Origin: Methanobacteriota archaeon
Lineage (GTDB): Archaea; Thermoplasmatota; Poseidoniia; Poseidoniales; Thalassarchaeaceae
DNA: 60,756 bases
Assembly: GCA_002717835.1 (NCBI GenBank)
Contig: PBBV01000015.1
Span: 35,782 to 96,537 of the forward strand
Direction: 5' to 3'
The first letter of the stretch is position 1. The number at the start of each line of letters is the position of its first letter. The translations under genes were made by a program, and so were the position numbers. The notes under the pieces are model-generated. The model was not told the DNA's origin. It made no database searches and worked only from the letters and a program-made list of their open reading frames with translations. Shown here piece by piece: positions 6,581 to 12,087 of the stretch.

Positions 6581-6597
6581 TTCTGAAAATCGGATTG

Positions 6598-7803
6598 ATG
6601 CGCATGAATGAGGGCCCCCAACAGGATGAAGATTCAGAAAATCTTCCGAATCCTTTCGCAGGATTGAGTGGTGATATAAAAGAAAGAATAGAGGAGGAAA
6701 AGAAATCCGCAGCCCAAGACGAGCAGAAGGCTGCTCTGGATTTCATCAGGATATTTAGATTGAAGGAACGATTATCTGTTCTGCAAGGGCCTAATGACCA
6801 GATCGAGGTCATGCTTAGCGGACCTTTGTTTTCCAGAACACTTCACAAAGACCCAATTACTTCAGTGGCATTCGTGGACAGTTCTGTTTGTGCTTCGGTT
6901 GGAATGGATCAGAGAATTCATTTCTGGAATTCTACTACCGACACTGTAGTCAGAACTCTTGATCAAACCGCATACAAAGGCCGTCTAGTGGCATCTCCCG
7001 ACAGATCTCTTCTCGCATGCGGGTCGCTAGACAAAACAGTCCAAATGTGGAATACTTCTGACGGACAACACTTACGGACAATAGACCTGGGCGGATTCGG
7101 GGTGCTTAGTGTGGATATTGCCCCCACTGGATCTATCATAGCATCAGGACTGTACAATGGGAATGTCAGATTATCAGACGTACAAACACTAGAGACAATC
7201 ATGGAATTCAGGGCCCATGAAGAAGCCGTGACAGCATTGTCATTCTCCCCATCTGGAAATACGCTTGCTAGCGGGTGTGAAGACGGGTCGATCAACGTCT
7301 GGAAATTACCTAATGGGTCTCACATTGCTGGCACATCAGAGTTTGAAAAACCAATCAATTCTCTTGTGATGCTCGAAGACGACCGATCCGTCGTTGTCGC
7401 TTTAGAACACAAACAAATACACCGGTGGAACACTCATGAACGTGAGATCACTGGAACTTATTCAGGTCATTCAGGAGAAGTCTACTCCCTATCTATGTCG
7501 CCCGATCGCAAACTCCTTGCAAGTGGGTCAAAAGACAACACCATTAGAATCTGGGATCTAGAATCTTGCACCGAGCGAAAGACATTGAGAGGCGGTCCGG
7601 GACGAATAAATGGTATTACATTCAGCAACGATGGAGAGCATTTGTTCTCGGGAAACTCCGAGGGAGAAGTTGCCTATTGGGGAGTTCAACTTGATGTGAC
7701 TCAAAGAGTGCTCGACAAGGTCGAGCAGATGTTGGTTGATGGGGGCTTCAATGTAAGGCGGACAAGAAAGCAAACAATACTCATTTCGCTAGCTAATAAC
7801 TGA
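6598..7803 (+). CDS. WD40 seven-bladed beta-propeller protein
   Basis: A soluble protein of 401 residues with no signal peptide. Residues about 15-75 are charged and helical, probably a coiled coil (EEEKKSAAQDEQKAALDFIR). Seven WD40 units follow, recognisable by endings such as IHFWN, VQMWN, INVWK, IHRWN and IRIWD, enough to close one propeller. A C-terminal tail of about 35 residues rich in Lys/Arg and Leu remains. WD40 propellers are scaffolds, so the partner is unknown. It starts 17 bases after the surface-protein gene and is probably cotranscribed, suggesting a cytoplasmic partner for that system (inference). Possible starts are TTG 6595, ATG 6598 and ATG 6604; no clear Shine-Dalgarno separates them. 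Confidence 0.85.
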   Translation: MRMNEGPQQDEDSENLPNPFAGLSGDIKERIEEEKKSAAQDEQKAALDFIRIFRLKERLSVLQGPNDQIEVMLSGPLFSRTLHKDPITSVAFVDSSVCASVGMDQRIHFWNSTTDTVVRTLDQTAYKGRLVASPDRSLLACGSLDKTVQMWNTSDGQHLRTIDLGGFGVLSVDIAPTGSIIASGLYNGNVRLSDVQTLETIMEFRAHEEAVTALSFSPSGNTLASGCEDGSINVWKLPNGSHIAGTSEFEKPINSLVMLEDDRSVVVALEHKQIHRWNTHEREITGTYSGHSGEVYSLSMSPDRKLLASGSKDNTIRIWDLESCTERKTLRGGPGRINGITFSNDGEHLFSGNSEGEVAYWGVQLDVTQRVLDKVEQMLVDGGFNVRRTRKQTILISLANN

Positions 7804-7804
7804 A

Positions 7805-8077
7805 TCAGAACTTCCTCTTTATTTTCGGCATTTTTCGACCAGATTCATTTTCAGAATCGTCCTCATATTCATCGCTGACAGGGCCCGTGGGTACAGATAG
7901 GTAAACTGCGACCAACTCCATCAGGTATGTCGTAGCAAATATCCCTCCCCACTGCCATACTTCGGTCCATCCCAATACCGCGTAAGCAATCACGGCTGCA
8001 GCCGTGGGGCGGATCCAGGATAGGGATGATCGAAGTGTGAAACCCATCTTTTTGATAGATTGGGACCTCCCAGCCAT
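7805..8077 (-). CDS. Small membrane protein, unknown
   Basis: A predicted 90-residue protein of unrecognised family. Two hydrophobic stretches lie at about residues 20-37 (IRPTAAAVIAYAVLGW) and 41-62. They are followed by an acidic segment (DEYEDDSENE) and a strongly basic end (KMPKIKRKF). I prefer the ATG at 8077, six codons inside the longest frame, because the extra residues add nothing recognisable. It is convergent with the WD40 gene, one base from its stop. The basic N-terminus, paired hydrophobic segments and charged tail look like a real small membrane protein, but the function is unknown. Confidence 0.6.
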   Translation of the reverse strand: MAGRSQSIKKMGFTLRSSLSWIRPTAAAVIAYAVLGWTEVWQWGGIFATTYLMELVAVYLSVPTGPVSDEYEDDSENESGRKMPKIKRKF

Positions 8078-8195
8078 GCTACTGCCAACAATCACTGGTT
8101 CTTGATGTTCGCACCGATATCGAGGTCAAACAGAGGCGTATTGTCGTAAATTACCCTGCTGACTTTTTTTTTGTAAGCCGTTCATCAGCGGCAGG

Positions 8196-8204
8196 TAATA
8201 TATA
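8196..8204 (+). promoter_or_regulatory. Putative TATA box for the four-gene block
   Basis: TAATATATA is centred about 29 bases before the ATG at 8229. In archaea transcription starts about 25 bases downstream of the box, so the first gene of the block would be leaderless or nearly so. Confidence 0.45.
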
Positions 8205-8228
8205 CATTGACAGACTGAAGAAGAAACA

Positions 8229-8471
8229 ATGAGCGAAGCCGATGAAAAACAAATGCTGCCAATCGCACTTTCCGGGGCAATAGGCGTATTGGCTCTCGCC
8301 GATGCTTTCTTGATCACTGCTGACTCAGATGATATGTTCAAGATAATACTGGGAATAGGCTCTCTCGCGGTCTCTGCGATCCTTTTGTTCTCCGGCGACA
8401 ACCCAATGCCGTCACTTCCTTTTGGAGGCAAAGAGGAAGAGCCTGAAGAGGAGCCGGAGCCAAAATTCTGA
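8229..8471 (+). CDS. Small two-helix membrane protein with acidic tail, unknown
   Basis: An 80-residue protein. Hydrophobic segments lie at about residues 10-28 (LPIALSGAIGVLALADAFLI) and 37-55, followed by a proline-containing linker and a Glu-rich C-terminus (KEEEPEEEPEPKF). I do not recognise the family. It is the first of four genes on this strand, and the next begins 13 bases after its stop, so cotranscription is likely. A TATA-like element sits about 29 bases before the ATG. The acidic tail could recruit the soluble protein encoded next; this is inference from adjacency only. Confidence 0.7.
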   Translation: MSEADEKQMLPIALSGAIGVLALADAFLITADSDDMFKIILGIGSLAVSAILLFSGDNPMPSLPFGGKEEEPEEEPEPKF

Positions 8472-8476
8472 GGTGA
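8471..8476 (+). promoter_or_regulatory. Shine-Dalgarno site fixing the start of the 683-residue orphan
   Basis: AGGTGA ends seven bases before the ATG at 8484. This supports that start over the next in-frame ATG at 8517, which has no such site. The site begins at the last base of the preceding gene's stop codon. Confidence 0.6.
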
Positions 8477-8483
8477 ATGTAAG

Positions 8484-10535
8484 ATGTGGGAACATAGGAG
8501 CATATCGAATACGGAAATGCGAAAATCAAAGACAATCGCTCCATCAGAGACTTATGTCCGTCTCATGGATGCAATTCAGGATAGCATAAAGGAAGCTGAG
8601 AGCAAAGAACTGGATTATGAGAGATTCTTGAAACACATACCAATGGAGGGCCCGTGGGCTCGTCTGGATGGTAATGACGAGGCTAAAGATAACCCAATCG
8701 AAAGATACGTGGGACCGGGGAAAGCCCGACTCATGAATACAAATTTATTCCTAGGCTCATCATGGATTGACACTCAGAGATTCAAATTCGAGCGTCGTAT
8801 CGACACCCCTGCAGATTTCATCCGTCAAAAGACCGTCGTGAATGCAAACATGTGGACTCCCAAACAAGTCTCTACGACACAGACCCTGTTTTTCTGCTCA
8901 ACAGGAGACGAAGATAGGTTGGGCGGTTCAATCTTGTCCAGCAATGGTAAGCCAAAGAATAACATCTCGGATCAACATCCATTTTTGGGTAAAGGAGACT
9001 CGGCTTACGCAGAGTGGGAACCAATTCTTTGGGGGCTTGGACACAGGGGCGTAGTACCTGGATCCGATCCTCAAGACAAGGTATATTACCCCTCTTTGAT
9101 GCATCGCGGAGTCACATTCAACAACAGACTTGGTTGGACCAGATATTCCCCAGCAGGGTTTGGAAAAGACGCTAGTGGTTACATGATGACTAGGCCCTAC
9201 TCTTGGATATGGCCTGCTGTAGATGGCAACAGGGAGAACGCTACTGCCTTCAATCTACTAGTCAATATGCCCGACAGAAGAGCATCATTTGGGGAGGATG
9301 GAATCACAGATGTTTACATTACCACCGGGAAAACTTCACTCTACACAATGATGGGTATGATGCGTTCTGCCACTGTGCGTCAGATGTTTGGCGGTGGGTC
9401 CGAACTCGTTCCCCTTGAATTCCACCTTGTTGAACCTGGGATTGACGAGTGGATACGCGGTGCTAGTGATGAGGACAAGTATGCCAGGCTGTTCGAAGTT
9501 ACGGCTGCTCTGGGTTACTACCTAACGAGTAACGAGACGGGGACTCTTGGCGGGGGCGGTAAGCGCCGACGCCTGGTCGTCTACCCAGACGATCAAGGGA
9601 ACCTTCTGACATGCGTCAACGCAAGCCAGGTCGCAGATCATGCATTGAAGACTAATTTCACTGCGTCCCTCTTCACCAAACTTGATCAAGCTGATTTCAT
9701 GAATAGAGTCTCAAGGAGATTCACCGCATATGCAGATTTAGTTGCTCGAAGCGAGAGCAGCAGAGGAGCGAAATGGATTAGCTCTGCATCAGTCAATGGC
9801 GAGAATGTTCAGGGGCCCAACGTACACACTATACTTGCAGTACGTGGATATGACATCATGACTATGAGTGAATATATGGATACATTCAATGATGTATCGG
9901 CTGCTCCTGAAAGAATAATTCGACGTTGCATACAGTCCATAGGGACAAATGCTCTAAAGACGCTTTACAGGCTAGATGATTTAGGAGAGGTACCGGGACA
10001 GTCCCCCTTCAAGCATATCTTCGCTCCCGAAGATGGGAAGCCTTTCGTTTACTTCACTGATCTAAGGTTCCTTGTACCCAATTCAATAGATCAGATGAGA
10101 ACTCTGGTTGGTAGTAAAGGTGCAGACAGAGGTAGGATGCGTGATGCCTTCGCTGAAATGACAGGAGCTGACCCCCTTACTGCGTTGTCGGTCTCAGACA
10201 TCTGTCTTCCATTCTTAGCGGACATGGGCGAAGACACTTGGCAGACAGGTACCGGTTTGAACACAGATGAGATTATTGTGGAGGTCACCATGGCCGTAGA
10301 CCCTGCTAGAGTTTGGAAGTCAATGTTAGAACCGACATTGGACGAGGTATTCGACATGCCCAAGGGAGGCAAAGGAACAGCGGCAAACATATGGGGCGAT
10401 GTATTCATTCAAAATGAAGCCCTGCATGATAGGATGAGAAAAGATGGACAGGGAGAATTCCTCAAGATACTACAACTTGCATATAATTGGTCAAATGACC
10501 ATTCAAGGAAAAGGCACAAAGATGCGTTTCAATGA
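8484..10535 (+). CDS. Unrecognised 683-residue soluble protein
   Basis: I do not recognise this protein. It has no signal peptide, no convincing transmembrane helix and no nucleotide-binding or metal-binding signature that I can identify. It is rich in Gly, aromatic residues and Met. Distinct stretches include VGPGKARLMNTNLFLGSS near residue 75, a Trp/Tyr-rich region at about 175-260, a Met-rich segment (YTMMGMMRSATVRQMFGG) near 290-310 and a basic patch GGGGKRRR at about 353-360. The reading frame is clean across 2 kb and has a good Shine-Dalgarno, so it is a real gene. It sits in a co-directional block with three genes for membrane proteins. Structural, enzymatic and nucleic-acid-binding roles are all open. 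Confidence 0.85.
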   Translation: MWEHRSISNTEMRKSKTIAPSETYVRLMDAIQDSIKEAESKELDYERFLKHIPMEGPWARLDGNDEAKDNPIERYVGPGKARLMNTNLFLGSSWIDTQRFKFERRIDTPADFIRQKTVVNANMWTPKQVSTTQTLFFCSTGDEDRLGGSILSSNGKPKNNISDQHPFLGKGDSAYAEWEPILWGLGHRGVVPGSDPQDKVYYPSLMHRGVTFNNRLGWTRYSPAGFGKDASGYMMTRPYSWIWPAVDGNRENATAFNLLVNMPDRRASFGEDGITDVYITTGKTSLYTMMGMMRSATVRQMFGGGSELVPLEFHLVEPGIDEWIRGASDEDKYARLFEVTAALGYYLTSNETGTLGGGGKRRRLVVYPDDQGNLLTCVNASQVADHALKTNFTASLFTKLDQADFMNRVSRRFTAYADLVARSESSRGAKWISSASVNGENVQGPNVHTILAVRGYDIMTMSEYMDTFNDVSAAPERIIRRCIQSIGTNALKTLYRLDDLGEVPGQSPFKHIFAPEDGKPFVYFTDLRFLVPNSIDQMRTLVGSKGADRGRMRDAFAEMTGADPLTALSVSDICLPFLADMGEDTWQTGTGLNTDEIIVEVTMAVDPARVWKSMLEPTLDEVFDMPKGGKGTAANIWGDVFIQNEALHDRMRKDGQGEFLKILQLAYNWSNDHSRKRHKDAFQ

Positions 10536-10581
10536 TCAAGAAGCCAAGAAGCCTATGGCTGAATCGGCACGCGTATAGACC

Positions 10582-11187
10582 ATGGAAGGCATTCAACTGC
10601 TAATTGCCGCGTCTACCGGACTGGGTCTAGCTGCAGCCTCTGGATTCAGGGTATTTCTGCCCCCGTTCCTGATGGCCGTCTGGGTTAGGCTTGGTTTCCT
10701 CGATGTAAGCATAGAGGGTACTGAATTCGAGGCTTTTTCGTCCGACGTGTCGATCTTGCTTCTCGCCGTGGCTTCATTATCCGAGATAATGGCTTACAAA
10801 ATTCCATGGATGGACAACATGCTTGACTCTCTCGCGACTCCCATGGCGGGTCTCGCCGGAGTATCTGTGGTTGCTGTATCCATGGAAGGGGCAGATCCAT
10901 CCATTCAATGGGCTCTTGCAATTATCGCAGGGGGAGGTGCGTCCCTATCAATTCAATCCGCGACGGTTGCAGGAAGGGGACTATCTTCGATGTTCACGCT
11001 GGGTCTGGCGAATCCATTTTTCTCCCTCTTCGAGGATTTCACCTCCATTTTACTGATTTTGTTAGCCCTATTGGCACCACTGCTGGCTCTAACGGCATCG
11101 CTGATGCTAATATTCGTAATATTACGGAGGAAAATGCAAGAAACGGTCGACTATCCGGCAATAAAATTAGGCCGGCAATCAACATAA
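10582..11187 (+). CDS. DUF4126 family membrane protein
   Basis: A 201-residue polytopic membrane protein resembling the DUF4126 family. The N-terminal GLAAASGFRVFLPPFLMAV and the YKIPWMDNMLDSLATPMAG block near residues 72-90 match the family's conserved SG.R.FLP and KIP..DN.LD...TP..A elements as I remember them. About five hydrophobic segments are visible, and the protein ends in a basic cytoplasmic tail (RRKMQETVDYPAIKLGR). The family has no established function. It is the third gene of the 8.2-12.1 kb block, 46 bases after the orphan protein. Confidence 0.8.
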   Translation: MEGIQLLIAASTGLGLAAASGFRVFLPPFLMAVWVRLGFLDVSIEGTEFEAFSSDVSILLLAVASLSEIMAYKIPWMDNMLDSLATPMAGLAGVSVVAVSMEGADPSIQWALAIIAGGGASLSIQSATVAGRGLSSMFTLGLANPFFSLFEDFTSILLILLALLAPLLALTASLMLIFVILRRKMQETVDYPAIKLGRQST

Positions 11188-11231
11188 CCGGCGAGAAAAG
11201 ACTCTTGTGTAATCCTCATGATTGTTTGATT

Positions 11232-11238
11232 AGGGGGA
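11232..11238 (+). promoter_or_regulatory. Shine-Dalgarno site supporting a GTG start
   Basis: AGGGGGA lies six bases before the GTG at 11245. There is no alternative ATG for about 28 codons, so the GTG start is well supported. Confidence 0.6.
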
Positions 11239-11244
11239 AATGAC

Positions 11245-12087
11245 GTGCAGTTACTTCCAGTATTGCCGCCAGAAACGGTCAGGGATTACTTGGTTGTGGT
11301 TCTTACCGCTGCATTCATCATTAGGATTTCCATGATAATCGGTCCACTACGACGGTTAGCAACATCAATCGATGACGATATCGAGCACAGAAGCACCGTC
11401 TCGAATCTGATGAATGTGAGCGATATATTTCTGAAACCCTCGATCCAGAGCCTCGGCAAATCCTTCATCCTCAGTGAAGTATTCATTCTCTTCGCACCCA
11501 TGCTGATTGCTCTTCCAGTAATGACGTTGGTTGGAGCAAGAGAAATACTAGCATCTGAATTGTCTCCGATGTCTTATCCCATTTTCGCTGGATTCCTTGT
11601 CCTTTGGCTGGCTCGAGACATACGCAGGTCCTCTAGGCTCAGGGCATTCTTGGATGTGACACACATACGATTAGAGGGGATGTGGATGTTCGCCGAGGAG
11701 GAGTTCAGGTCATGGAATTTGAATCAAGATTTCAGAAGGTCATGGTTCCTCAATGAGCTCCAGCAGGCTGATCTGAAAGAGGCGGTTGAAGGTGAGAATG
11801 GGATATTATCAGGTTTCGCGGGGCTGTTGTCTAGAAATCCGATTGCCGTTGCTGTTGTAAAGCAGATAAAGCGTGGACTAGACTCCAATATCCTTGCGCC
11901 ATTCTCTGAACAAATACACTCCACTGTGATGAGTGTAATCCGAATGAGAATGAATCAGATAGTTGGAGAGCAGCTAGAAGATTTTCGTCGGAAGTCTCCG
12001 ATGAGAAGGGCTAATCTTCTGTTCGAGGCTTTGCTTCCAACCATGTTCATATCGGCACTTTTGATGCTACATGTCGGTGGAATTTGA
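11245..12087 (+). CDS. Membrane protein of unknown family
   Basis: A 280-residue protein starting with GTG. Hydrophobic segments lie at about residues 15-35, 76-96 and 108-126, and a last one near 260-278 ends almost at the C-terminus (LPTMFISALLMLHVGGI). Between 130 and 255 is a long amphipathic, mostly helical domain with many Arg and Glu, likely cytoplasmic. I do not recognise the family. It is the last gene of the four-gene block; its stop faces the convergent MFS gene 77 bases away. It may form a membrane complex with the DUF4126 protein and the orphan soluble protein, an inference from order alone. Confidence 0.75.
   Translation: MQLLPVLPPETVRDYLVVVLTAAFIIRISMIIGPLRRLATSIDDDIEHRSTVSNLMNVSDIFLKPSIQSLGKSFILSEVFILFAPMLIALPVMTLVGAREILASELSPMSYPIFAGFLVLWLARDIRRSSRLRAFLDVTHIRLEGMWMFAEEEFRSWNLNQDFRRSWFLNELQQADLKEAVEGENGILSGFAGLLSRNPIAVAVVKQIKRGLDSNILAPFSEQIHSTVMSVIRMRMNQIVGEQLEDFRRKSPMRRANLLFEALLPTMFISALLMLHVGGI

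Follow-up and report, generated by a model that had tools for sequence, protein, structure and literature searches.

What does a large soluble protein of no recognisable family do among genes for membrane proteins? The question arises from a four-gene block in a 60,756-nucleotide stretch of DNA (the window; contig PBBV01000015.1 of assembly GCA_002717835.1, positions 35,782 to 96,537 of the forward strand) from a Poseidoniales (Marine Group II, MGII) archaeon, here genome G000 of genus g1, family f1. The block encodes proteins of 80, 683, 201 and 280 residues in gene order, which we call P0001 to P0004. An initial annotation, made from the sequence alone, proposed that they form a membrane complex. 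The reading we lean towards, with somewhat more confidence than doubt, is that P0002 belongs to the tubulin/FtsZ superfamily as a highly diverged member and acts as a membrane-tethered filament or scaffold docked by a C-terminal Lys-Phe (KF) peptide. Feature coordinates are collected in Table 1.

Predicted fold of P0002

P0002 matches nothing in Pfam, NCBIfam or PHROG and has no sequence match in the Protein Data Bank (PDB). At the sequence level the initial annotation was right to see no motif in it; the fold was not foreseen, and came from the structure prediction that the annotation had recommended. We modelled P0002 and a 678-residue orthologue (L041) with AlphaFold2, the two being 68% identical, and compared both models by Foldseek with about 350,000 PDB chains, listing 50 matches per search. 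Members of the tubulin/FtsZ superfamily were the only matches listed: alpha-, beta- and gamma-tubulins fill all 50 rows for both models, with TubZ also present for the first. Best E-values were 3.9e-6 (P0002) and 7.3e-6 (orthologue), each search gave 267 matches at E<=1e-3, and the Foldseek probability was 0.99-1.00. The predicted template modelling score (pTM) is 0.57-0.58, and many blocks of the C-terminal 400 residues reach a predicted local distance difference test (pLDDT) value of 70-89 in both models.

The order of tubulin/FtsZ elements, in the established nomenclature, can be followed from beta4 to H12. In the P0002 model these are beta4 (residues 276-279), H4 (283-301), beta5 (311-317), H5 (329-348), beta6 (362-368), H7 (374-393), T7/H8 (399-421), beta7 (450-460), H9 (474-491), beta8 (522-531), H10 (549-560), beta9 (568-574), beta10 (596-605), H11 (607-620) and H12 (657-677). 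At the position of the T4 loop stands TTGKTS, invariant in the family except at one position, and P0002 may bind nucleotide through this changed loop. Asp401 and Asp404, spaced by three residues like the acidic pair of T7, fall where H8 is predicted to begin after H7; both are invariant in 58 sequences, and the family has just two invariant [DN]xx[DE] motifs, of which D401-x-x-D404 is one. The KLDQAD of P0002 is comparable to the NxDxxD loop of FtsZ, with Lys replacing the FtsZ Asn. Invariant residues cluster at 201-316 and 377-412, segments that may form two faces meeting in a protofilament. As a guess, the equivalents of T1-T3 may lie at residues about 180-235, or more broadly somewhere within about 178-274.

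A conserved pair of genes

The description of four same-strand genes with gaps of 12, 46 and 57 bases was borne out by a check of the open reading frames (ORFs). Kyte-Doolittle plots place two hydrophobic segments in P0001, none in P0002 and four each in P0003 and P0004, in agreement with the annotation of P0001 as a two-helix protein with a Glu-rich tail; the tail ends EPEPKF. The TATA-like element reported before the first gene (8196-8207) is also real, since it sits in a block kept in eight genomes of genus g1 while the surrounding DNA has diverged. It stops about 20 bases short of the P0001 start codon (ATG), which makes a leaderless or almost leaderless transcript probable.

Comparison of gene neighbourhoods across MGII genomes contradicted the expectation that the four genes stay together: only P0001 and P0002 do. 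The conserved unit is this pair plus variable neighbours. In tblastn searches of more than 100 loci P0003 and P0004 adjoin P0002 only in g1. P0003 is, as suggested from the sequence, a clear DUF4126 member (PF13548; E 5e-37, 127.7 bits against a gathering cut-off of 27.5), but lies outside the conserved pair. A four-protein membrane complex that includes the DUF4126 protein and the 280-residue protein is highly improbable: the four genes are adjacent in nearly all sufficiently long g1 loci, yet no homologue of P0003 or P0004 was found near P0002 in any other genus of the tblastn survey, and the spacing to P0004 widens to 0.5-1 kb in several g1 genomes. What survives of the proposed complex is a soluble protein tied to an acidic-tailed membrane protein.

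That partner is constant. Our scan took in 80 distinct loci, each reaching 420 bp or more upstream of P0002; in 80/80 P0001 or a counterpart lies directly upstream, as an ORF ending 9-20 bp before P0002. At the threshold used, two membrane segments are predicted in 61 of these ORFs, one in 15 and none in four, so that 76/80 span the membrane. The cytoplasmic tail has a median of 98 residues and is 27% acidic, and the C-terminus is -KF in 73/80. The window's P0001 is the shortest type. Because the intergenic gaps are only 9-20 bp, the two genes are probably co-transcribed.

Partner and P0002 also occur together: in family f2 a clear tether is present in 87 genomes, of which 86 also carry P0002 (Fisher p 2e-26). 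The remaining genome, G172, has a tether fused to an apparent P0002 C-terminal tail, which looks like a deletion or an assembly collapse. Conversely, 22 P0002-positive genomes have no clear tether match; these include eight of g16 and two of g18, both with divergent tethers, and some in which P0002 is at a contig edge. In one lineage the membrane part of the tether is followed by an EF-hand pair and only then by the acidic tail (tested in L039), which suggests calcium control of that tether.

The C-terminal KF motif

The tether usually ends in [KR]KF-COOH. Such ends are rare: two of 1015 sampled ORFs from three genomes end in -KF, and one of the two is the window's own gene at 7805-8095. A search of the complete genome G119 for [KR]KF ends, in which each site was then read individually, left the tether and a 1441-residue He_PIG surface protein as credible, with one doubtful 88-residue ORF. 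This rarity rules out -KF as a general feature of the proteome.

The motif recurs on other membrane proteins near P0002: the divergently transcribed 96-residue protein of g1 (KRKF or KKKF), a 'SMADRYGP...RKF' protein in g8 and g16, and, in g19, a downstream protein of 170 residues (KKKF). The gene directly upstream of P0002 ends KH or KI, not -KF, in g16 and g19, and there another neighbour carries the motif (DRKF in g16, KKKF in g19). We read -KF as a docking peptide because it is rare, recurs on neighbours and is apparently replaced where lost. Binding of KF ends to P0002 and polymerisation of P0002 are predictions that we rate jointly at slightly under an even chance.

A different explanation is that -KF is a membrane-protein signal for sorting, stability or processing by another factor, or reflects shared ancestry of the tethers. 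The adjacent tethers are probably homologous, so that the 73/80 are not independent events, and a KKKF end is also found on a large He_PIG surface protein whose gene is distant from the locus. We nevertheless think this explanation somewhat unlikely, given how rare -KF ends are genome-wide and that they recur on apparently unrelated membrane neighbours of P0002. It is compatible with the tubulin reading, and our confidences therefore do not sum to one.

The surface protein of G119 (L268:2141-6466) has He_PIG Ig-like domains and a helix-hairpin-helix-like C-terminal domain, and is encoded about 760 kb from P0002. It may be a further KF-motif client, or its ending may be coincidental.

Distribution and conservation

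In a phylum-wide profile search of 390 genomes P0002 was found only in Poseidoniales. It is present in 11/11 searched genomes of g1, 3/10 of g8 and 108/171 of f2 (18/21 of the best-quality f2 genomes), and absent from g20 and from most of g15. Relatives of the four genes are in metagenome-assembled genomes labelled Poseidoniales or Euryarchaeota. A viral origin was rejected, there being no relative in IMG/VR and only noise (E at least 0.3) in the Foldseek search of viral structures in BFVD. A link to the archaellum was set aside: archaella are reported from all MGIIa genera and some of MGIIb (PMC6461757, PMC6336850), a distribution that overlaps that of P0002 but differs from it, P0002 missing from g20 and most of g15.

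Within genus g1 P0002 is 95-98% identical, while most neighbours drop to 57-67% in the more distant species. That this identity is kept despite near-saturated synonymous sites shows the ORFs to be genuine genes. Similar comparisons give 93-98% and 83-86% identity for the two standard FtsZs that these genomes encode; by sequence identity, then, P0002 is conserved at the level of FtsZ within the genus.

A few copies are broken, through deletions or assembly faults: G068 has a pair of overlapping partial copies, G136 has a copy with an internal deletion, and G172 shows the loss with tether fusion.

Weighing the reading

Several results weigh against a tubulin-like, KF-docked P0002. Mean pLDDT is 54 in both models, and residues 1-272 are not resolved. 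Template modelling (TM) scores of the Foldseek matches are 0.20-0.25 (query) and 0.29-0.37 (target), with root mean square deviations of 10-18 A; in these models the match consists of local structural elements in the same order and falls short of a clean superposition, and this is the main weakness. Pfam tubulin-clan models (PF00091 and others, including Tubulin_2, PF13809) match 0/29 family members, hhalign of P0002 against the FtsZ of MGII finds nothing, hmmsearch with filters off does not place FtsZ among the best matches, and the T4 signature GGGTG[TS]G is missing. The presence of P0002 is patchy within the order, adjacency makes its co-occurrence with the tether partly a linkage effect, and binding of the KF tail to P0002, polymerisation and nucleotide binding are predictions.

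On this balance a tubulin-like fold from about residue 275 is likely, not proven, because TM-scores stay below 0.4. Membership of the superfamily is putative, because the sequence signature is absent. The tubulin match might be misleading, with P0002 a soluble enzyme of a new fold or of some other unrelated kind, linked to a small membrane protein; the low TM-scores and pLDDT, the lack of sequence signal and a Walker-like GKTS following a strand would all suit this. We hold it quite unlikely, since models of two orthologues pick one superfamily out of all the PDB chains searched, generic Rossmann or P-loop proteins are none of the 50 matches listed, and a T7-like motif stands at the right place.

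Alternatively, the fold may be tubulin-like and P0002 a membrane-recruited adaptor or nucleotide sensor, held by KF tails, that does not polymerise, as may be true of other superfamily members that have degenerated. Loss of the GGGTG loop to TTGKTS and the lack of any sequence relation to FtsZ favour this version, but conservation at the FtsZ level across the genus and invariant residues in segments predicted to form two longitudinal faces fit an assembling protein, and we regard it as unlikely.

Under the favoured reading of an assembling, tethered P0002, the protein would form a filament or scaffold distinct from the division ring of FtsZ. A dedicated, co-transcribed small upstream membrane protein would hold it at the cytoplasmic membrane; the acidic, probably disordered tail of this tether would end in the short peptide, usually [KR]KF-COOH, that serves as the docking site. 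Several flexible acidic tether copies would recruit P0002, and other membrane proteins with the same KF end could join. The assembly would act as a local scaffold, perhaps one that serves the cell surface or attachment, and a role in cell shape, surface organisation or attachment may follow. More tentatively, an undescribed tubulin-superfamily family without the classical GTP-binding signature may form a membrane-tethered cytoskeleton in Poseidoniales, with exchangeable membrane adaptors that, in place of the tubulin itself, bear the disordered linker and the conserved -KF docking peptide and, in one lineage, a calcium-binding EF-hand pair.

Besides P0002, these genomes carry two standard FtsZs and, as a third relative, an FtsZ-like protein (about 305 residues) with GGGTGTG and NLDLMD, so that P0002 would be a fourth superfamily member in MGII. 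The third family (L259-L267; genomes G119, G170, G048, G003, G009, G010, G127, G121 and G238) is found both with and without P0002.

We found no literature report of the P0002 family, although subscription papers and preprints were mostly outside the search, so this is not proof, and the literature search found no cytoskeleton beyond FtsZ in Poseidoniales. These archaea, reported as uncultured, are described as the most abundant archaea in the plankton of the surface ocean (PMC6461757). If the reading is true, a fourth, sequence-invisible tubulin relative with its own tether would extend the superfamily past loss of the GTP signature and would make cell shape or surface organisation in Poseidoniales open to experimental test. 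It would also show that profile searches can overlook a familiar fold even in an orphan as conserved as FtsZ, and -KF, as a short linear motif, has a binding that can be assayed with peptides.

Neighbouring genes

The 96-residue protein encoded divergently from P0001 shows two moderately hydrophobic stretches by eye, below the threshold used for calling transmembrane segments. Upstream in the window (6595-7803) is a soluble WD40 beta-propeller protein, with synteny kept within the genus.

In g12 and g13 the next gene after P0002, or the next but one, encodes a divergent thermosome subunit, and CCT, a chaperonin, folds tubulin. A dedicated partnership was rejected: the same paralogue occurs in P0002-negative genomes, leaving gene order only. 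In part of g12 a coiled-coil protein with a C-terminal membrane anchor (L041:12072-13316) lies between P0002 and the thermosome gene. The fourth chaperonin of three P0002-positive genera was likewise discarded, being a bacterial-type GroEL that also occurs in P0002-negative genera. This GroEL (L300-L303, with C-terminal GGM repeats) is patchy beside the thermosomes in g1, g2, g7, g8 and g16 among the genera seen, as after lateral transfer.

Table 1. Features of the P0002 locus and of related loci (window positions unless a locus is named)
Feature	Position	Strand	Basis
Conserved promoter block with TATA-like element, 5' of P0001	8180..8213	+	8-genome comparison
P0001, putative membrane tether with two hydrophobic helices and a Glu-rich tail that ends EPEPKF	8229..8471	+	80-locus scan
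PKF codons at tether C-terminus, putative docking peptide	8460..8468	+	KF-end counts
P0002, 683 residues, soluble, putative divergent tubulin/FtsZ-superfamily member	8484..10535	+	structure models, Foldseek, distribution
P0002 residues 1-274, strongly conserved, low-confidence part, invariant MWEH start	8484..9305	+	model, alignment
P0002 residues 275-683, tubulin-like order beta4-H4-beta5-H5-beta6-H7-T7-H8-beta7-H9-beta8-H10-beta9-beta10-H11-H12	9306..10532	+	models, Foldseek
Residues 276-288 DVYITTGKTSLYT, strand-loop-helix at T4 position, TTGKTS replacing GGGTGTG	9309..9347	+	model, alignment
Residues 399-405 KLDQADF, T7-like loop	9678..9698	+	model, alignment
P0003, DUF4126 membrane protein, genus-level neighbour outside conserved unit	10582..11187	+	Pfam, tblastn
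P0004, 280-residue membrane protein, genus-level neighbour outside conserved unit	11245..12087	+	library search, tblastn
Divergently transcribed 96-residue protein ending PKIKRKF, second candidate tether	7805..8095	-	neighbourhood, C-terminus
Divergent thermosome subunit gene after P0002, g12/g13	L041:13357-15006, L072:12130-13716, L082:12085-13680		
Lineage with EF-hand-pair tether	L039:4716-5633, L040:8862-9986		EF-hand tested in L039
Broken P0002 copies	L115:2656-5180; L118:357-790; L269		

Comparison with known systems

P0002 resembles tubulin, TubZ and gamma-tubulin in its predicted order from beta4 to H12, its exclusive Foldseek matches among those listed and its T7-like D-x-x-D at H7/H8. 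It differs from them in having no detectable sequence similarity, in carrying TTGKTS where they have GGGTG[TS]G, in an N-terminal part longer by about 175-270 residues and in insertions within the C-terminal domain.

CAP-Gly domains recognise C-terminal EEY/F tails, and the tether likewise has an acidic tail and a terminal aromatic residue with a free carboxylate as its would-be recognition feature. The tether, however, has basic residues before the Phe, and no CAP-Gly domain was found at the P0002 locus.

FtsZl1 (Tubulin_2) and FtsZl2 are also large divergent members found beside standard FtsZ, and FtsZl1 adjoins membrane-protein genes (Makarova and Koonin 2010; PMC2875224). P0002 is neither of these, which both retain the GGGTG(S/T)G loop. 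FtsZl1 further has coiled-coil and helical C-terminal regions and vWA/GTPase partners (PMC2875224), none of which was seen for P0002.

The architecture recalls FtsZ with tethers of the SepF/FtsA type, where a cytoskeletal protein is held at the membrane via a short C-terminal peptide. There the peptide and its disordered linker are on FtsZ, whereas in the P0002 system they are on the membrane protein.

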